Virus record (IMG/VR): IMGVR_UViG_3300045440_000108
Coordinates: 1 to 27,588 of that record
DNA: 27,588 bases
Reading direction: 5' to 3' (one strand)
Source: a virus
The notes beneath the pieces were generated by a model, which was not told the DNA's origin, did not search any database, and worked only from the letters and a program-made list of their open reading frames with translations. Within the stretch, counting starts at the first letter, position 1. The number at the start of each line of letters is the position of its first letter. This document shows positions 6,661 to 24,938 of this stretch, piece by piece. A program made the position numbers and the translations under genes.

Positions 6661-6834
6661 ATGGCCAAGTACAAAGTACGCGATCAGTTCTTCGTTCACC
6701 TAAACGAACAGGTGTACGAGCCTGGCACGGTTGTTGAACTCACCGAGGAAGAGGCCGCCAAGGTCGCTCACCAGGTTGAGCCAGTCGCGGCTGTGAAGCC
6801 GGCGAAGGCGCGCGGCGCCTCCGATGCTGTCTGA
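6661..6834 (+). CDS. Small protein after capsid, 57 residues
   Basis: ATG at 6661 follows a good ribosome site (GGGGGA, 6649-6654). The product starts MAKYKVRDQFFVHLNEQVYE, continues with PGTVVELTEEEAAKV and ends in an Ala/Lys-rich tail. Short proteins of this form (an SH3-like K-V...G..Y.PG..V.L pattern with an acidic helix and Ala/Pro/Lys tail) are common right after phage capsid genes and occupy the place of lambda FI, but I cannot assign a proven role. It overlaps the next gene by 11 bases, which supports it being real. It could be a head completion accessory protein. Confidence 0.72.
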   Translation: MAKYKVRDQFFVHLNEQVYEPGTVVELTEEEAAKVAHQVEPVAAVKPAKARGASDAV

Positions 6835-7099
6835 AGACCTCGACGTTTTCTTTAATGACTTTGCTGTCACCGTTGTCATTGGCTCGGTGACCGGCAAGGG
6901 CATTCTCGACGCGCCGACACATATGATTTCGGACGGAACCATTCTGTCCAACGATTACATCCTCACCGTTCGGACGAGTGTTTTTGGCAGTCCTCTGTAC
7001 GGTACCTCAATCAAGGTAGGCGGCGTTTCGTACACTGTCCGTGAATCGCGACAGATCGACGATGCGGCCTTTACCGAAATACTTTTGTCCAAGGTGTGA
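6824..7099 (+). CDS. Head-tail joining protein, gpFII-like
   Basis: 91 residues; lambda gpFII has 117. The pattern VTGKGILDAPTHM, then ILTVRTSVFGSPLYGTSIKV, then GGVSYTVRESRQID matches the FII layout (a loop with 'F-D-P', a strand ending in VRT, then 'GDT-x-IG-x-x-F-V'). FII binds below gpW on the filled head and forms the site for tail attachment. The start lies inside the end of the 57-residue gene and the stop overlaps the possible GTG of the next gene, so it is translated within a tight series. The similarity is weak in sequence and supported by gene order. Confidence 0.7.
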   Translation: MLSEDLDVFFNDFAVTVVIGSVTGKGILDAPTHMISDGTILSNDYILTVRTSVFGSPLYGTSIKVGGVSYTVRESRQIDDAAFTEILLSKV

Positions 7100-7104
7100 G
7101 CCTG

Positions 7105-7440
7105 ATGGTTACTCCAGCAAATTTGGACATCACCATCGAGCAAAACGCTACGTTCTCGATGCAGTGCGATTTCAAAGACAGCACTGGCGTTGCTCTGAAC
7201 ATGAACAGTTACACCGTTGCAGCGCAACTGTGGACCGAGGCGAAAGGCCGGAAACTGGCCGACTTTACCGTGACCTGGGTAAACCGAGCCTCTGGCCAGT
7301 TCACTATCTCGCTCTCGGCGGCCGTCACGGCAGCGCTTGGCGCCAGCGGGTATTGGGATCTCCTGGTTACCAACCCTGACGGCACCAAGGACTATTGGCT
7401 GCGCGGCGCGGCAACCCTTGAGGCCGGGTATACGCTGTGA
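7105..7440 (+). CDS. Small beta-sandwich virion protein
   Basis: 111 residues from ATG 7105, placed 8 bases after AAGGTG (7091-7096); a GTG at 7096 overlapping the previous stop would add three residues. Strand-rich: NATFSMQCDFKDSTG, YTVAAQLWTEAKGRKLADFTV, ISLSAAVTAALGASGYWDLLV and DYWLRGAATL are typical of a family of Ig-like beta-sandwich proteins in phage and prophage structural clusters. No enzyme motif or signal peptide. The second half (LSAA-T-A-L, then Tyr-Trp, then a closing strand) resembles the N-terminal domain of the protein at 2505. It opens a block of surface-protein genes and overlaps the next one by 4 bases (GTGA). Function not proven; virion attachment or adaptor domain is the likely role. 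Confidence 0.65.
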   Translation: MVTPANLDITIEQNATFSMQCDFKDSTGVALNMNSYTVAAQLWTEAKGRKLADFTVTWVNRASGQFTISLSAAVTAALGASGYWDLLVTNPDGTKDYWLRGAATLEAGYTL

Positions 7441-7889
7441 GCCAGGTAGCAGTAACCACCACTACTGCCACCGTCTCTGTTTCGACCACCGAGAACGGTG
7501 TCTCGGTCCAGGCGGCGGCGCAGCCCACGCTGGTCAACGTAACCGCGGTCGGCCCTCAAGGCCCAGCCGGCGGCCTTCGTGCCACGGTACTGACCACGGC
7601 CGCCAGTGTCACTCCGAATGCCGATACGGATGACTTGGTATCCATCGATGCCCTGGCGACCGCGCTAAACGTCACCAATCCGTCTGGGACGGCCGTAAAT
7701 GGCCAGCGGCTACTGATCCGCATCCTCGACAATGGAACGCCCAGGGCGCTGTCCTGGGGCGCCCTGTACGCCAATGGCGGGAACGCCCTGCCAACGACCA
7801 CAACAGTTGGCAAGCGGATGCACCTCGGCTTCATGTACGATTCATTTCAGACAAAATGGTACCTGGTCGCCCAGGCCACCCAGGCATAA
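7437..7889 (+). CDS. Short fibre-like protein with GPQGPAG hinge
   Basis: 150 residues with a GTG start inside the preceding stop. The first ~40 residues are Thr/Val-rich strands (VAVTTTTATVSVSTTENGVS), then a collagen-like hinge GPQGPAG at ~39-45, then a C-terminal module (~47-150) with TPNADTDDLVSIDALA, GQRLLIRILDNGTPRALSW and HLGFMYDSFQTKWYLVA. That last module recurs at the C-termini of many phage tail-fibre and appendage proteins, where it likely forms a compact, oligomeric beta tip. Only two Gly-X-Y triplets are present, so this is a hinge rather than a collagen stalk. The role as a virion appendage is inferred from the module and the neighbours. Confidence 0.68.
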   Translation: MSQVAVTTTTATVSVSTTENGVSVQAAAQPTLVNVTAVGPQGPAGGLRATVLTTAASVTPNADTDDLVSIDALATALNVTNPSGTAVNGQRLLIRILDNGTPRALSWGALYANGGNALPTTTTVGKRMHLGFMYDSFQTKWYLVAQATQA

Positions 7890-7901
7890 CGGAGAAAAAT
7901 T

Positions 7902-8306
7902 ATGGCTCTTCAGTATTCGGTTGCTGTTCGTAACGCTAGGCTTGACGTGGTGGAATCCACCATCGGCGCCGCGGCGGTTTTGAAGATTTTCACCGGCGCC
8001 CCTCCTGCAAACGCGGCCGCAGCCGACAGCGGTACCGTTTTGGCAACGGTGACGCTGCCCAGCGATTGGATGAACGCCGCCAGCGCCGGCACAAAGACAC
8101 TGTTTGGCACCTGGAGTACGACCGCCTCGGCCGCCGGCACGGCTGGCTATTTCCGTCTCTACGCCACTGGCGGCACCGTGTGCGGCGCCCAGGGGACCGT
8201 GACGGCCACGGGTGGCGGCGGCGACATGACTGTGGACAACACGTCCTTCGCCAGTGGCCAGTCCTTTTCGGTTACCACGTTCACGCTAACGGCCGGAAAC
8301 GCCTAA
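7902..8306 (+). CDS. Phage structural protein, 134 residues
   Basis: Starts at ATG 7902 after GGAGAAAA. The sequence begins MALQYSVAVRNARLDVVEST, has LKIFTGAPPANAAAA and LPSDWM in the middle and ends with a Gly-rich GTVTATGGGGDMTVDN and a FTLTAGNA tail. I recognise this as a small conserved protein often found among phage virion genes, predicted all-beta, with no assigned function. No signal peptide or membrane segment. Lying between two fibre-like proteins suggests it is a virion surface or adaptor protein. Composition is GC-rich like the preceding genes, unlike the next gene. Confidence 0.65.
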   Translation: MALQYSVAVRNARLDVVESTIGAAAVLKIFTGAPPANAAAADSGTVLATVTLPSDWMNAASAGTKTLFGTWSTTASAAGTAGYFRLYATGGTVCGAQGTVTATGGGGDMTVDNTSFASGQSFSVTTFTLTAGNA

Positions 8307-8307
8307 C

Positions 8308-9246
8308 ATGGGGCTGGTTCATACAACCACTGCTACTGGTACCAATGATGGTACAAAACAGGTTTCTGTAACTGCGTGGAATGAAGAGCATACAGTAAAC
8401 ACAAGCCTGAACCTCCCTGACTCTACCTATCCGGCGACTGCCAATGCTCCTGCAAGCGGAGCGGAATTGTTCTCGCAATTCTTGCTTGGCTCATGGCGCA
8501 AGGTAGGGTTTGTCGATACAGATGGAAAGGTGCATTACTTTGCCCCGCACCCAAACACTGCCAATGTCTATGCGTTAGTTGCCAATGGCGGCACCACTTC
8601 TACTACATTTGCACTGCCAGTTGGCCACGCTATTACTGCTACTGCTGCTACGTTTTTGGCACAAGCGCCAGCAGCCGGAGACGCTGTTTCTCTTAGCAGC
8701 CGCTATTCATGCAGGACAAACAACACCGCAGGTAATGCTGTAGAGATTCGACCGACAGGTTTTCTAGGAAGCAGGACTGGCGGTTTCTTTTTCGATATGA
8801 CTTTTAAGATGCGAACGATTGTAACCAACAACCGTGCATTCTTTGGGCTGACAAATAACATCACGACTTTTGGCAACATCAATATCCTAACCAACACTGC
8901 ACAGGACAAAGTTGGCGTAGGTGTAAATTCGTCCACAGGTAATTGGCAGTTTGTCCACAACACGGCAGGAACCACTCCGACGCTTATCGACCTTGGAACC
9001 AACTTTGCATTAAACACAACTGACTTTTTTAGGCTGTTGATATCCTGCATCAGCACTGATACCGCATCGCTATATTGGGTTGTAGAAAATTTGACAAACG
9101 GCCAGACCTCCAGTGGAACTGCTACTACTAATCTTCCTACTGTCACTGCTATGTTAACGCCACGCCAATACCTAACAAACAATGCACAAAGCACGATTGC
9201 CGACTTTGATTCAACTGGCTATTTCATGCAAGCGTTTACCGTATGA
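8308..9246 (+). CDS. Tail-fibre-like / receptor-binding candidate
   Basis: 312 residues, starting one base after the preceding stop. The N-terminus (HTTTATGTNDGTKQVSVTAWNEEHTVNTS) is a short module I recognise at the start of many phage fibre-type proteins, likely an anchor. The remainder (~110-312) is Asn/Thr/Phe-rich, strand-like, with GFFFDMTFKMRT and LISCISTDTASLYWVVENL, compatible with a concanavalin-like or other jelly-roll binding domain. GC is 43-48% in sampled lines (8521-8580, 9121-9180) against over 60% nearby, pointing to a separately acquired, fast-exchanging gene as expected for an adhesin. No catalytic motif seen. Adhesin role is inference. Confidence 0.62.
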   Translation: MGLVHTTTATGTNDGTKQVSVTAWNEEHTVNTSLNLPDSTYPATANAPASGAELFSQFLLGSWRKVGFVDTDGKVHYFAPHPNTANVYALVANGGTTSTTFALPVGHAITATAATFLAQAPAAGDAVSLSSRYSCRTNNTAGNAVEIRPTGFLGSRTGGFFFDMTFKMRTIVTNNRAFFGLTNNITTFGNINILTNTAQDKVGVGVNSSTGNWQFVHNTAGTTPTLIDLGTNFALNTTDFFRLLISCISTDTASLYWVVENLTNGQTSSGTATTNLPTVTAMLTPRQYLTNNAQSTIADFDSTGYFMQAFTV

Positions 9247-9659
9247 CTGTTTATAACGTAGTAGACACTGCCGGAACTCTATCTCTTGTTGAGGTAGGGC
9301 AGAGCATTCCTGAAGGCGGCGTAATTGTTGCGATCACTTCTGACCCAGACTATCTGAACCACCCATCGCAAGTTGAATCGCTCATCAGCAAATTTGCTTT
9401 TTTGCAGCGCTTCACGGAAGCAGAGTTGGTGGCAATAGAATTGGCAAAGATTCACAGCGCCAGTGCCACTCAGTCACAAAACGAATTTGCCGCAACACTT
9501 CGTATGCACCAATTGAAATTGGATGCATCGAAATGGGTTGATTTGCAACATACGGAAACCGTTACTGGCTTGAACGGGCTGGAAGCGGCTGGACTTTTGT
9601 CTACTGGCCGAGCAAATACTATTTTGACCACGCCAATAGCAGACGATGAGAGGCCGTAA
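9243..9659 (+). CDS. Conserved small protein paired with the fibre-like gene
   Basis: 138 residues, ATG overlapping the previous stop (ATGA), and of the same low GC, so it probably travels with the gene at 8308. The N-terminal ~45 residues look strand-rich; ~55-138 is helical with LISKFAFLQRFTEAELVAIELA, DASKWVDLQHTETVTGLNGL and AAGLLSTGRANTILTTP. This 'F-RFT-E-E... D-L...T..GL..L...GLL...RA..IL' pattern occurs in small proteins that accompany phage fibre or baseplate genes. It may be a fibre assembly chaperone or a minor structural piece; I cannot tell which. No signal or membrane segment. Confidence 0.58.
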   Translation: MTVYNVVDTAGTLSLVEVGQSIPEGGVIVAITSDPDYLNHPSQVESLISKFAFLQRFTEAELVAIELAKIHSASATQSQNEFAATLRMHQLKLDASKWVDLQHTETVTGLNGLEAAGLLSTGRANTILTTPIADDERP

Positions 9660-9667
9660 GGCAAACC

Positions 9668-11128
9668 GTGGCTGTTTGGATTCGATCTGCTAGTTCATTC
9701 GGTCTGCCAGGTCTTCCAGGCGCCTCGTCTTATGTCGTTCCAAGGCCGGCAAGTTACGTCGAAGGCAACGTCATTGTTGCTCTGGCGTACTGCCAGTTGG
9801 GGTTCGTTTCTACGCCTACGGGATGGACTCAGCAAGCCAGTAGCACTGGCTCTGGGTACATTCATGTCTTTACCAAGATTGCATCAGCAAGCGAACCAAG
9901 TACATACACGTTCAATAATGAGGGCGTAGACTCTCCGGCGTTTTTTGTACTGTTGGCTCTTGGCGGCGTTTCTTCATCATCGCAGGTCGGAGGCGCCGCG
10001 TGCGCCTACACTGCCGAGACTGGCGGCCCACCGTTACTAGTCACAGCGCCAGCGTTCACATCCACCATAAGCGGCTCGGCGCTGTGGATTGCGATGGATT
10101 CCAGTAACTATTCGTCTTCTGCATTTACGGCCCCTGCCGGGTACTCTAGCGGCATCGTAGACCTAAGCACCGCTGGAACGTATGTCACTGTATACGCAAC
10201 GGCAACTAAAGACGGGATTACGGCAGGATCCATAGCGGCTGCTGATGGAAGTCTTAGTAGCGCTTCCGATGGTAATTTCTTTGTTGCCCAAATAGGCATT
10301 GCTTCTGGGTCGGTGGACCCTCTGCCGCCGCTATTTGACGCTGCCATATTTGACCCTGTTGTATTTGATGCCGCAGTGCCGTCAATCACCGGCACGCTGT
10401 CGGTATCGGAAAATAACGATACGCTTTCAGCGGCCGGCACGATTTCTGGCTCCACCGGAATTACGGCAACCGCGGCTATTACGGAAGCAGCCGATACCGT
10501 ATCTGGTATTGCGGCGATTTCTGTTCTCGCATCAGCGGCGATTACAGAAGCATCGGACAGTGCCTCCGGTGTGGCTTCCCTGGCGATCGTTGCAACTGCC
10601 ACGATCACGGAAGGCGGCGACAGCCTGGCCGGCGTATCGTCAGCCAGGGCGACCGCAACGCTGTCGGTCCAGGAAGCAAACGATTCCGTTTCCGGTGTGT
10701 CTTCCCTGCCAGTTCGCGCCAGCCTGGCGGCCACGGAACAAAATGACAGCCTGACTGGATTTGGATCGGCTGGTGGCATTTCGGCAAATGCATCCATCAC
10801 GGAAGCCGCTGACACTGTTTCTGCGGCCGGCGCTTTGCCGCTTGCTGCTGCCGCGTCGATTACGGAAGCATCGGATACCGTAACGGCAGTTTCCTCGCTG
10901 CCCGTAAAATCGTTCCTAAGTCTTGTCGAAGCAAGCGATAGTGTAAATTCAGTTTCCACTATTCGCGTTTCTGCCAGTTTGCTGCGGACGGAGGCAAACG
11001 ATTCAGTAACGTCCAGTTCATCGTTGACCCTGACTGGCGCGGCGACTATTATTGAGCAGGGCGACATTTTGGTCGCAAGCGGTTATTTCGTGCCGCCAAC
11101 GAATTCTGCGTTCTTCCAGTTCTTCTAG
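9668..11128 (+). CDS. Virion surface protein with ~11 tandem beta repeats
   Basis: 486 residues from GTG 9668 with only a weak ribosome site (AAGGC). Residues ~30-215 form an all-beta domain (GNVIVALAYCQLGF, TPTGWTQQASSTGSGYIHVFTK, EPSTYTF) of a kind common in phage and surface proteins. After PLFDAAIFDPVVFDAAVPS come about 11 repeats of 19-25 residues (~239-471), consensus A-S-I-T-E-A-x-D-S-V-S-x-V-S-S-L-x-V, then a short FFQFF end. The repeats resemble the 'TEADDTLSATG' type found in other phage structural proteins and suggest a beta-solenoid or fibrous stalk. The C-terminal Phe-rich end recalls oligomer-sealing tails. It closes the inserted surface-gene block. Role inferred, not shown. Confidence 0.66.
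   Translation: MAVWIRSASSFGLPGLPGASSYVVPRPASYVEGNVIVALAYCQLGFVSTPTGWTQQASSTGSGYIHVFTKIASASEPSTYTFNNEGVDSPAFFVLLALGGVSSSSQVGGAACAYTAETGGPPLLVTAPAFTSTISGSALWIAMDSSNYSSSAFTAPAGYSSGIVDLSTAGTYVTVYATATKDGITAGSIAAADGSLSSASDGNFFVAQIGIASGSVDPLPPLFDAAIFDPVVFDAAVPSITGTLSVSENNDTLSAAGTISGSTGITATAAITEAADTVSGIAAISVLASAAITEASDSASGVASLAIVATATITEGGDSLAGVSSARATATLSVQEANDSVSGVSSLPVRASLAATEQNDSLTGFGSAGGISANASITEAADTVSAAGALPLAAAASITEASDTVTAVSSLPVKSFLSLVEASDSVNSVSTIRVSASLLRTEANDSVTSSSSLTLTGAATIIEQGDILVASGYFVPPTNSAFFQFF
10382..11080 (+). repeat. Degenerate tandem repeat region, about 11 units of ~21 codons
   Basis: In-frame repeats within the gene at 9668. Each unit carries a T-E-A/Q-x-D core followed by S/T-V-S/A, for example ITEAADTVSG, ITEASDSASG, VQEANDSVSG, ITEASDTVTA, VEASDSVNS. 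Unit lengths vary between 19 and 25 residues. The DNA copies are diverged, so the protein pattern is under selection or the expansion is old. Confidence 0.8.
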
Positions 11129-11135
11129 GTAGCGA

Positions 11136-11558
11136 ATGACCATCAGGGAGCAAATCCTCTCGACTATAGCCACGAAACTGGCATCTGCGCCGAGCATTGG
11201 CGCGCCGGTGTATCGCAGTCGAGTTACGCCCCTGGCGCGCGGCGAAAGCCCCGCAGTCATTGTCGAGCCGCTTCAGGACCAGGCTAACCAGGCAGTTATT
11301 CCAAAAATAGACTGGACCATGGGTGTCCGCATTTCCGTTATCGCGCGCGGGTCAATTCCAGACCAGGCCGCCGACACGATCATCCAAAACATCCATGCTA
11401 AAATGACCGCGGATCTGACGATGGGAGGATATGCATACGATGTGCAGCCAAACACCACGTCATGGGAATTCGTAGAGAGCGACCAACCCAGTGTCGTTGT
11501 CTCTTACGACTTCCTAATTTTGTACCGCACATCGCTGACCGACTTGACCGTAGGGTAA
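11136..11558 (+). CDS. Tail terminator / minor tail protein, U-like
   Basis: 140 residues (lambda gpU 131). The pattern MTIREQILSTIATKLASAP, VYRSRVTPLARGESPAVIVEP, DWTMGVRISVIARGSIPDQAAD and SVVVSYDFLILYRT fits small tail-completion proteins of the gpU/tail-terminator type, which cap the tail tube and fix its length before joining the head. The position, two genes before the tail tube gene, is that of lambda U. No gpZ-like gene lies before it. The stop is 4 bases before the next ATG. The assignment rests on pattern and gene order, so some doubt remains between terminator and another tail-completion protein. Confidence 0.72.
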   Translation: MTIREQILSTIATKLASAPSIGAPVYRSRVTPLARGESPAVIVEPLQDQANQAVIPKIDWTMGVRISVIARGSIPDQAADTIIQNIHAKMTADLTMGGYAYDVQPNTTSWEFVESDQPSVVVSYDFLILYRTSLTDLTVG

Positions 11559-11562
11559 GTAA

Positions 11563-11712
11563 ATGAACGAAACCATTGACGAGTTCCACGGCCAGGGCGG
11601 GTCATACACCGCCGATCCAAAAACGGGTAAGCGCACGTTGGTGTCGCGAACTCTTGACCAGGCAGAGCCTGTTGCTCCTGCCGATCCTGCCACTGATCCC
11701 GATCAGGAGTAA
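11563..11712 (+). CDS. Small acidic protein, 49 residues
   Basis: ATG at 11563 after GGGTAAG, stop at 11710-11712. The product begins MNETIDEFHGQGGSYTADP, has TGKRTLVSRT in the middle and ends in a Pro/Ala/Asp-rich tail. The GGSY-x-DP-x-TG-R form recurs in short proteins sitting just before phage tail tube genes. It has good codon use, its own ribosome site and tight packing between neighbours, so it is likely translated; its function is unknown. No membrane segment or signal. Confidence 0.6.
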   Translation: MNETIDEFHGQGGSYTADPKTGKRTLVSRTLDQAEPVAPADPATDPDQE

Positions 11713-12693: not shown

Positions 12694-13035
12694 ATGGCTT
12701 TCGTTTTGAAGCAGAGTGCCAGTTATACCTGGCCGGTAACGGTTGAATTCCCCACTGACGGTGGCCGCTTTGAAAAGCACACCTTCGATGCGGAGTTCAA
12801 GCGTCTTAGTCAGACCAGGATCGAGGGCATCATGGCCGATGCCGTTGCCAACCAGTTGAAGGATGGCGAGGTAGCGGCCGAGGTGCTGATCGGGTGGAAG
12901 GGTGTCACCGATGGTGGCGCCGACATTCCGTATTCCGAAACTGGCAAGGCAGAGTTGCTGGAAGTCCCCCTGGTGGCCGCATCGGTCATCAAGGCGTGGA
13001 TGGAAAGCCTGTCGGGAGCCAAACGAAAAAACTAG
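12694..13035 (+). CDS. Tail assembly chaperone G-like
   Basis: 113 residues, preceded by the strongest ribosome site in the window (AAAGGAGGAGG, 12678-12688), matching a product needed in quantity. It begins MAFVLKQSASYTWPVTVEFP and carries FKRLSQTRIEG and VLIGWKGVTD, the usual marks of the siphophage chaperone family that coats the tape measure during tail assembly. The stop TAG at 13033 comes directly after the slippery A-AAA-AAC, which allows a minority of ribosomes to continue as the GT product. Lambda gpG is 140 residues. Assigned by pattern, size, position just before the tape measure and the frameshift arrangement. Confidence 0.87.
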   Translation: MAFVLKQSASYTWPVTVEFPTDGGRFEKHTFDAEFKRLSQTRIEGIMADAVANQLKDGEVAAEVLIGWKGVTDGGADIPYSETGKAELLEVPLVAASVIKAWMESLSGAKRKN

Positions 13036-13382
13036 AAGAGGCCGCGCGCTACTGGGTCGGCGGCGGTGACTCCCTCAAGGAAGTGATCCAGGACCTCAAA
13101 AACCTTAATGCCCCAGCCGAGGTCATCAAGGAGTTTGAGGACGCCCAGCGCAAGGAAGATTTTGAAGTGTGGCCAGAGAACTGGACCGTACTAGAAATTT
13201 TCCTGCGTTTGCAGACGCAGTGGAGAACCACTTTTGGTGGATTGCTAGGACTAGATTACACTGCGGCTAAATGGGTATTTGAAATCTACGAAGTCAAAGA
13301 TCAAAAGGAAATGCTCGACAGCCTTATGATCATTGAACGTGCGGCACTGAATGCTTTGAACGAGGACAAAAATGGCTCTTGA
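12694..13382 (+). CDS. Tail assembly chaperone GT (-1 frameshift product)
   Basis: About 229 residues: the 113 residues of G, then 116 from the -1 frame, beginning LEEAARYWVGGGDSLKEVIQ. The T part has no ribosome site or good start of its own before the junction and shows protein-like sequence only after the slippery site (QDLKNLNAPAEVIKEFEDA, WPENWTVLEIFLRLQTQW). In lambda, GT is made at a few percent of G and links the chaperone to tail tube and tape measure. The T end overlaps the tape measure start by 11 bases. Length and layout match the lambda G/GT system. Confidence 0.86.
13026..13032 (+). promoter_or_regulatory. Programmed -1 ribosomal frameshift site
   Basis: The heptamer A-AAA-AAC in the G frame (…CGA AAA AAC TAG) is a canonical X-XXY-YYZ site placed one codon before the G stop. 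A -1 slip moves to …AAA CTA GAA GAG and opens the T frame. A possible 5-bp GC stem (GCCGC 13041-13045 with GCGGC 13060-13064) starts 8 bases after it and could stimulate slipping. Lambda uses G-GGA-AAG instead. Confidence 0.88.
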
Positions 13383-22941: not shown

Positions 22942-24018
22942 ATGGCAGATTGGTCGCTACCTACACTCACCTCGACCTATGCGAACTTCAGGCAGAACCT
23001 GGTGGATCGCGATGTCGAGGCGGCAACTCAGTTTTCCCTGACCACGCCGACCAACACGCCAACCGGCGCCATCAAGTGGGACACCACTTTGAACCGGTGG
23101 CAGAAGTGGTCCGGTACCGCTTGGGGCGAACTCGCCACCACCTACGCCCTCACCGGCCTCACTGTCACCAGTTTCAGCAACACTGGCAACACCACGCTGG
23201 GCGATAGCAGCGCAGACACCGTCACGGTCAACGCCAACACTATGGCGTTTCCAAACGGTGTTTCCATCAGCGGCAACGTCACCTATTCAGGTCTGATCAC
23301 TTTCACTGGCAACGTGACGTTTGGTGACGCCGCCGGCGACACCGTTACCCTGGTTGGCACCACCGTCAACCTGGCAACCGGAACCACCACGTTTGCGGTC
23401 GGCACCGCCAACTTCAGCGTTGGCCTCCAGGTCGCTGGGTCGGCCGTACTCAGCGCCGCCTCGACGGCGACACTGACCAACAAGACCTTCGACACGGCCG
23501 GCACCGGAAACGTGTTCAAGGTAAACGGAAACTCGCTGACGGCTACGGCCGGCACCGCCACTGTCACTGTCCCAAACAGCACCACCACCCTGGTTGGCCG
23601 CGACACCACCGATACGCTCACGAACAAGACCATCACGGCCGCGGCGTCGGGATCCAGCGTCAAGGACAGCGCCGGCACTGCCTTTGAAATCGGCTACATG
23701 GATCTGCCGCAGAATGCCCAGAGCGCGGCATACACCCTGGCACTGTCGGATCGTGGCAAGCACATCTCCATAACCACCGGTGGCGTGGTCATCCCGGCTA
23801 ACGGCAGCGTGTCGCCGCAGGTTCTCTTTCCGATCGGCACCACCATCGTGGTCTTCAACAACAGCGCTACGGCACAAAACATCTCGATCACTACCGACAC
23901 GCTGCGCCAGTCCGGCACTACGAACGTAGGAACGCGCAGCCTGGCTGGTTACGGCATGGCAACCCTGGTAAAAATTGGCACCACTGTCTGGGCCATCTCT
24001 GGTGCGGGTGTCAGTTAA
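22942..24018 (+). CDS. Tail fibre-like protein, 358 residues
   Basis: It follows J by two bases. Residues ~38-65 (PTGAIKWDTTLNRWQKWSGT) form a short Trp-rich motif common near the start of phage fibres. Residues ~75-170 hold beta repeats (TTLGDSSADTVTVNA, VTFGDAAGDTVTLVG), and ATLTNKTFDT at ~177 and DTLTNKTITA at ~224 are the two copies of a shaft motif widespread in phage fibres. The C-terminal ~108 residues (GYMDLPQNAQSAAYTLALSD...VLFPIGTTIVVFNN...WAISGAG) are a trimeric beta tip module found on many appendages. This should be a side or tip fibre protein that contacts the host. The stop shares a base with the next start (TAATG). Confidence 0.83.
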   Translation: MADWSLPTLTSTYANFRQNLVDRDVEAATQFSLTTPTNTPTGAIKWDTTLNRWQKWSGTAWGELATTYALTGLTVTSFSNTGNTTLGDSSADTVTVNANTMAFPNGVSISGNVTYSGLITFTGNVTFGDAAGDTVTLVGTTVNLATGTTTFAVGTANFSVGLQVAGSAVLSAASTATLTNKTFDTAGTGNVFKVNGNSLTATAGTATVTVPNSTTTLVGRDTTDTLTNKTITAAASGSSVKDSAGTAFEIGYMDLPQNAQSAAYTLALSDRGKHISITTGGVVIPANGSVSPQVLFPIGTTIVVFNNSATAQNISITTDTLRQSGTTNVGTRSLAGYGMATLVKIGTTVWAISGAGVS

Positions 24019-24938
24019 TGAGCGGCATTCTCGGCGCTCTTGCTGGCGCAAGCAGCGGCTACGCTTCATCGACCTATTTGATGGGCGTTGGCGCCGGCGG
24101 CACTTCGTCCAAGTTCTTTACGTCCTGGAACTACGGATACACCTTTGATTCTGCCTCGATGATTTATCCTGGGCAGAATGGCTTTCTTGTACCAAGCACA
24201 CGCATAAACGTCGAAACAGCAGAAATTGCGTACTTCACGCAAAGCACCGGCTCCTTTGGGATCCTGTACGACCTGGTATGGACCACGATATCAGGGCTTG
24301 CCAGCAAGGTTAATCTCGACGGTGTCCAATACCTGATGTCAGATGCCGGCCTTGCCTCTGGAGCATCTGCTGCGGTTACGCTGTCGATCGCAACACCTGG
24401 TGTGGTCACCTGGTCAAGCAATACTGTGGTTGTTGGCGACACCATCATGTTTACGACAACGGGCGCGCTACCGACCGGCCTGACGCCCAATACAGTCTAT
24501 TTTGTACAGGCGATCGTAACCTCCGGAAACACCTTCAACATCGCTGCCACCAAGGGTGGCGCTGCGATTGCATTTTCCGGAACCCAGAGCGGAACACATA
24601 CCGCTTACCTGCGGCCGCGCCGCAGGTTCACGGTGGCCGGCGCGCCTTCCACAAACCCATCGTGGGCCAGGCAGCCGGTTGCGCCAACGGCCAACACCAG
24701 CAACCCGGTTACGTTCACTTCCACCGGCCACGGGTTCACCAATGGGCAAACGGTTGGTTTCACCACCACTGGATCGCTGCCGTCAGGACTGAGTCCAAAC
24801 ACCCAGTACTACATCGTCAACGCCGCTGCGAATACCTTCCAGGTTTCCGCAACATCTGGCGGCGCTGCGCTGGGCAACGGCGCGATCAAGTCAGGCACAT
24901 ACCTGTGCATGAGAACCATTACCGTAATCGTGTCATAA
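24018..24938 (+). CDS. Tail fibre-associated protein with a duplicated module
   Basis: 306 residues. The N-terminus (MSGILGALAGASSGYASS) is Gly/Ala/Ser-rich; ~20-115 is a beta-rich segment of unknown type. Then two copies of an ~80-residue module: ~118-197 (GDTIMFTTTGALPTGLTPNT, NTFNIAATKGGAAIAFSGTQ) and ~222-298 (GQTVGFTTTGSLPSGLSPNT, NTFQVSATSGGAALGNGAIK). That module recurs in many phage fibre and appendage proteins. Position between a fibre gene and an orphan suggests a surface or fibre-tip component. No catalytic residues or membrane segment. Role inferred from module type. Confidence 0.72.
   Translation: MSGILGALAGASSGYASSTYLMGVGAGGTSSKFFTSWNYGYTFDSASMIYPGQNGFLVPSTRINVETAEIAYFTQSTGSFGILYDLVWTTISGLASKVNLDGVQYLMSDAGLASGASAAVTLSIATPGVVTWSSNTVVVGDTIMFTTTGALPTGLTPNTVYFVQAIVTSGNTFNIAATKGGAAIAFSGTQSGTHTAYLRPRRRFTVAGAPSTNPSWARQPVAPTANTSNPVTFTSTGHGFTNGQTVGFTTTGSLPSGLSPNTQYYIVNAAANTFQVSATSGGAALGNGAIKSGTYLCMRTITVIVS
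24369..24911 (+). repeat. Duplicated ~80-residue module (24369-24608 and 24681-24911)
   Basis: Both units carry FTTTG-x-LP-x-GL-x-PNT, then Y-x-V/I, then NTF-x-x-x-AT-x-GGAA. They lie head to tail in one gene with a ~24-residue spacer. The protein match is clear; the DNA match is partial. Confidence 0.75.

Follow-up and report, generated by a model that had tools for sequence, protein, structure and literature searches.

Exchangeable fibre-gene cassettes between the FII-like and tail terminator genes of a lambda-like siphophage, and their possible place at the neck

What are six fibre-like or appendage-like genes doing at the head-tail joint of a lambda-like phage? The question is raised by IMG/VR virus record IMGVR_UViG_3300045440_000108, positions 1 to 27,588, the whole of which (27,588 nucleotides) is the window analysed here. 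Six tightly packed forward open reading frames (ORFs), called c1 to c6, occupy positions 7105–11128, between the genes for a gpFII-like head-tail connector (FII) and a gpU-like tail terminator (U). They encode 114 (111 from a conserved ATG at 7105), 150, 134, 312, 138 and 486 amino acids (aa), and are arranged head to tail, with −4, +12, +1, −4 and +8 bases between neighbours. All six proteins match protein families, so these are not chance ORFs; the spacings, those family matches and the matches of the flanking genes (PF05354 for FII, phrog_4204 for U) confirm the arrangement given in a preliminary description of the window.

We found that the FII-U interval is an exchange hotspot for fibre cassettes rather than a fixed module. 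A role of the cassette in fibres or attachment is very likely overall. A neck or collar appendage, as proposed in the preliminary description, is the best-supported reading of where the proteins would sit, and we give it about an even chance. The explanation as a whole, a host-attachment cassette that can be interchanged at a fixed FII-U hotspot, with c1 forming a ring at the neck, appears to us a shade better than evenly balanced.

Fibre Cassettes Between FII and U

Relatives were gathered through their capsid, portal, terminator and c1 proteins, cultured cyanosiphophages were added, and the gap from FII to U was then measured; such a survey of gene order had been suggested in the preliminary description, and it showed the interval to be variable across related loci (identified below by L numbers). 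The gap table has 58 rows, counting the window itself and a few that repeat one contig: the gap is ≤350 bp in 32 rows, ~600 bp in 11 and >1 kb in 15. Each of the ~600-bp rows holds one fibre-sized gene, of the Mtd_N type in those tested, while the inserts longer than 1 kb contain Mtd_N or collagen-like fibres, LamG-like proteins (recognized by inspection) and small accessory proteins. Counted by related locus (n = 56), the interval lacks a fibre gene in 32, where FII and U usually abut; it holds other fibre genes, mostly of the Mtd_N type, in 19, and the cassette type of the window in five. Three close relatives of the window (L056, L058 and L061) keep c1, c2, c3 and a c6-like protein, with other genes in place of c4 and c5. 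In L015 and L017 the insert is placed just upstream of FII instead, and S-CBS1 and S-CBS3 have an mtd gene upstream of FII. The cyanosiphophages S-CBS1, S-CBS3 and S-LBS1 share the gene layout and the hotspot, with fibre genes between the major capsid protein (MCP) and tail terminator genes; however, their fibres are of the Mtd_N type or other kinds, their FII has a C-terminal tail, and c1–c6 are absent. A scan of genome contigs with the capsid protein yielded just one close relative, identical to an IMG/VR contig.

Some smaller genes were noted at these loci. A protein of ~110 aa (MALGDQSSFGVV...), possibly a decoration protein, heads both pre-FII inserts (L015 1562–1894 and L017 12163–12495), after the capsid-side small gene; L129 and L113 carry, in this same stretch before FII, different small genes of about that size. 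In L006, a near relative on a Phenylobacterium metagenome-assembled genome contig, a phrog_858 transcription-regulator-like gene (7610–7972) lies between FII and U, and fibre genes are absent there.

FII Tails and Fibre Genes

The C-terminus of FII varies with the gene that follows. FII extends 0–6 aa past its conserved domain in 32/32 loci with no fibre gene following, and carries 19–109 extra C-terminal residues in 19/19 loci with a fibre gene directly after; the extension is 0 aa in all five loci where c1 takes the slot. These tails are of several sequences, unrelated to one another. One supported clade contains both states: L013 combines a fibre with a 76-aa FII tail, and L015 and L019 have no fibre directly after FII and an extension of 0 aa. 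The association of tail and fibre is a strong pattern, though without formal significance. In our reading the FII tail of sister phages with Mtd_N-type fibres would dock the fibre on the FII ring, and c1 would do this job in the cassette type of the window.

c1 and c2: An LtfC-Like Protein and a Hinged Fibre

c1 satisfies the Pfam LtfC model (PF23926) with 30.8 bits against a curated cutoff of 27, and it also matches phrog_3304, "L-shaped tail fiber assembly" (8.6e-12); its relatives are 60–76% identical. The ORF opens at GTG 7096, yet the start should be the ATG at 7105, since the relatives begin at the equivalent ATG. c2 comprises, in order, alternating short strand-like segments (VAVTTTTATVSVSTTENGVSVQ...), GPQGPAG, and a tip domain that matches phrog_3030. 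The pair and its layout are shared with L056, L058, L111, L112, S-CBS4 (gp051–052) and Streptomyces phage TunaTartare (gp28–29), and, as read from the sequences, a strand-rich N-terminus next to the LtfC-like gene is found in c2 and in its counterparts in L056, L111, L112, S-CBS4 and TunaTartare. The TunaTartare pair sits between the head-tail adaptor gene and gp26, whose sequence we read as capsid-like. The LtfC-like genes of cyanomyophages have a neighbouring gene without a GPQGP-type hinge.

In T5 and DT57C, too, a small LtfC-family beta-sandwich protein is encoded beside a fibre (LtfA) with a strand-rich N-terminus. The LtfC of DT57C forms a dodecameric collar, into which the fibre inserts beta-strands of its N-terminus (PMC10713586); by analogy, ring formation can be predicted for c1. 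The systems differ in that the DT57C ring is at the tail tip, whereas the genes of the window are at the head-tail joint, the fibre is short with a GPQGP hinge, and c3–c6 are added. The neck passage structure of lactococcal phages (TP901-1 and the 936 phages; PMC6669499) is also similar, being a neck collar of beta-sandwich domain with variable carbohydrate-binding tips that is optional and swappable, but it is a single long protein that includes a coiled coil, in TP901-1 encoded after the baseplate genes, while the window has separate small genes. No single long protein with BppU-type sandwich, coiled coil and carbohydrate-binding domain was found in the cassette, where the sandwich c1 is a separate 111-aa gene. 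Two other candidate relationships of c1 were rejected: a duplication of the N-terminal domain of the head-tail joining protein was ruled out (hhalign, 7.5%), and two weak Ig-domain hits to CD276 in the PDB were taken as chance.

c3: A Widespread Virion Protein

c3 matches phrog_3758, "virion structural protein", over its full length (1.2e-30, residues 1–132). Homologues were found in 516 IMG/VR stretches; the best 80 of these, at 60–78% identity, were combined with cultured phages to give 48 genomic contexts. A c6-type repeat protein lies near c3 in 37 of the 48. The gene upstream could be named in 28 contexts, being a portal, capsid or connector gene in ~23 and a tail gene in five by our tally, a count in which short podophage late regions inflate the number beside portal, capsid or connector; c3 follows the portal gene in L039, L048, L070, L076 and L100. 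The same 60–78% identity is unusually high for a protein spread (loci L028–L107) across unrelated podo-, sipho- and myophages with genomes as large as 250 kb, which suggests that it is often exchanged and that its partner is under tight constraint.

The AlphaFold2 model of c3 is of high confidence, with a pLDDT of 90.5. Its best Foldseek match is 9rkv_A, from the tail-fibre map of phage 7-7-1 (E 9e-6, TM 0.77 by query length), and it also matches neck chains of Bas63 (9mt4_K, 7e-4, TM 0.66) and Sf14 (9c39_K, 2e-3, TM 0.65; both by query length) and, more weakly, the GP4 fibre-tail adaptor and A511 gp105. From the molecule name, size and copy number in the deposition and from the paper, 9rkv_A is most likely the garland protein, which relates c3 to the garlands of 7-7-1 and Milano and the BW3TFN connectors of A511. 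PDB 44nx_B, identical to podophage KPP25 ORF006, is a sequence homologue of c3 (1.4e-9). The Sf14 whiskers are gp30/gp31 dimers whose genes are located after the portal gene (PMC11821841). With the neck whiskers of Sf14 and Bas63 (PDB 9c39 and 9mt4) c3 thus shares its fold and, in several phages, its place after the portal, but it has no sequence similarity to Felix O1 ORF54/55, and the window is from a siphophage, not a myophage. On the modelled structure we propose that c3 is a dimeric fibre connector of garland/whisker fold.

c4, c5 and c6: Putative Adhesins and an Accessory Protein

The family phrog_13925 matches the L111 fibre by its first part and c4 by its last part, so that c4 looks like a free-standing fibre tip. 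c4 has a 25% match to Pan4_25, whose gene likewise directly follows a c3 gene; no c4 relatives were found in IMG/VR, and neither c4 nor c6 had a sequence match in the PDB. c5 is 39% identical to Rheinheimera phage Barba21A gp125, a small protein located after tail-fibre genes, and may have an assembly-accessory role. The two form a replaceable adhesin-plus-accessory pair, and since their stretch (8308–9659) has 47% GC and 44–45% GC at third codon positions, against 56% GC for the whole window, the pair is probably a recent arrival. c6 has an N-terminal domain of ~230 residues followed by about ten repeats with a period of 21 residues, and ends in SAFFQFF; it gave no tblastn match in cultured phages.

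Neck or Tail Tip

In the arrangement that we propose, beta-sandwich subunits of c1 would form a ring around the neck at the level of FII and U, as LtfC does around the DT57C tail tip. The strand-rich N-terminus of c2 would be laced into this ring through strand augmentation, and c2 would exit through its GPQGPAG hinge to present the tip domain. Like garland or whisker proteins, dimers of c3 may link the fibres to each other or fasten them to the neck, while c4 (aided by c5) and c6 would serve as exchangeable adhesins, attaching to the cell surface or to the polysaccharide it carries. Fibres mounted on the neck rather than only at the tail tip are suggested by the LtfC-family assignment of c1, the FII-tail pattern, the neighbours of c3, its fold match to Sf14 and Bas63, and the presence of separate fibre-size genes behind gene J (22942–24938).

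Several results count against this arrangement or against certainty about it. DT57C LtfC encircles the tail-tip TTMP ring (PMC10713586), and the 7-7-1 and Milano garlands enclose the baseplate fibres of contractile tails, which is again the tail tip. The c3 genes of L036, Seuss, Send513, Pan4 and L093 lie behind J or other tail genes. The FII-tail correlation requires at least four changes on the tree, and cannot reach significance in a sign test because only two independent pairs are on well-supported branches. Felix O1 ORF55 and ORF54, the probable whisker genes, gave 0.7% and 0.2% probability and no alignment when compared with c3 as single sequences by hhalign, so the link between c3 and whiskers is one of fold rather than of demonstrated ancestry. 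The AlphaFold model of c4, made from one sequence only, has a pLDDT of 34. Finally, the position of the TP901-1 neck structure gene after the baseplate genes (PMC4493119) makes gene order weak evidence for position in the virion.

The DT57C and garland precedents would also fit a cassette for T5-like side fibres of the tail tip, with the c1 ring on the distal tail and the gene position an accident of cassette recombination; so would the related siphophage L036, where c3 and a repeat protein are behind J, and S-CBS4, where c1 and c2 are behind tail-fibre genes. We consider this rather unlikely, since an FII tail is present exactly when a fibre gene directly follows, the window already has its own fibre-size genes behind J, and c3 genes mostly adjoin portal, MCP or connector genes. 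Those same capsid-side neighbours, c3 often following the MCP gene, could instead point to head fibres or another capsid decoration that shares a late-gene position with the capsid gene; PHROGs classes c3 under "head and packaging", one fibre of the sister cassette in L013 matches a "head decoration" family, and 7-7-1 has capsid fibres (PMC12796354). Yet the cassette goes with FII and U and not with the MCP gene, FII tails track the presence of fibres, and LtfC and the other fold relatives, those of c3, are tail or neck proteins, making a capsid role improbable. The preliminary description had also recognized no gpZ-like gene, where lambda has Z between FII and U, and had allowed that a cassette gene might replace it in tail completion. 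The first point was borne out, as none of the six proteins matched gpZ; the second is largely refuted already and we give it hardly any credence, since FII abuts U in many relatives with nothing between, so that the lineage has no gpZ there for the cassette to supply, and all six families look like those of fibre or virion-appendage proteins.

Few phages are known to bear fibres or a collar at the neck, the main examples being T4, the lactococcal phages and Felix-type myophages. A hotspot beside FII that accepts unrelated fibre cassettes, and an FII tail gained or lost along with them, predict a physical docking site, and the prediction applies to the cultured phages S-CBS1, S-CBS3 and TunaTartare. 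Tentatively, and with somewhat less than even confidence, we suggest a siphophage lineage with an exchangeable neck-fibre socket, either an FII docking tail or an LtfC-type collar ring, into which diverse cassettes swap to give a second adsorption apparatus beside the tail tip. If true, neck fibres of uncultured phages could be recognized by a sequence rule, and the very common phrog_3758 family would gain a function.

The Cassette and Its Flanks

Table 1. Genes of the cassette and its two borders, with window coordinates
Feature	Coordinates	Strand	Basis
FII-like head-tail connector	6824..7099	+	91 aa, C-terminal tail absent (extension 0 aa); PF05354 E=4.7e-8, 34.0 bits vs cutoff 26
c1, LtfC-like beta-sandwich, proposed collar ring/adaptor	7105..7440	+	PF23926 4.4e-7; phrog_1084 1.6e-23; phrog_3304
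c2, short fibre: strand-rich N-terminus, GPQGPAG hinge, C-terminal tip domain	7437..7889	+	phrog_3030 2.6e-13
c3, virion protein, proposed dimeric fibre connector (garland/whisker fold)	7902..8306	+	phrog_3758; predicted structure
c4, adhesin/fibre-tip protein	8308..9246	+	C-terminal domain of phrog_13925, 3.7e-20, residues 73-308
c5, small fibre-accessory protein, possible assembly chaperone	9243..9659	+	phrog_25252 4.2e-10
c6, N-terminal domain and 21-aa repeats	9668..11128	+	phrog_38872 6.1e-17
gpU-like tail terminator, right edge of hotspot	11136..11558	+	phrog_4204 E=5e-33; 51% to S-CBS1 tail terminator

The remainder of the window comprises the late region of a lambda-like siphophage, with terminase, portal, fused protease-capsid protein, tape measure, M, L, K/I and J; the second of the fibre-size genes behind J has weak tail-fibre matches, and lysis genes follow. 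The 188-aa gene before the portal gene, called gpW-like in the preliminary description, instead belongs to phrog_5774, "head-tail joining", and its product far exceeds lambda gpW in length.

A 49-aa ORF (11563–11712) that separates U from the major tail protein gene and has the motif GGSYxxDPxTGxRxLVxRT matched no PHROG or Pfam family; it has counterparts in L007, L013, L015, L019, L024, L056, L058 and L111, among others. At 12694–13382 a tail assembly chaperone ORF terminates in SGAKRKN over an A-rich run and a second ORF overlaps it in another frame, which looks like a programmed frameshift of the gpG/gpGT type; the same overlapping layout is present in L058.

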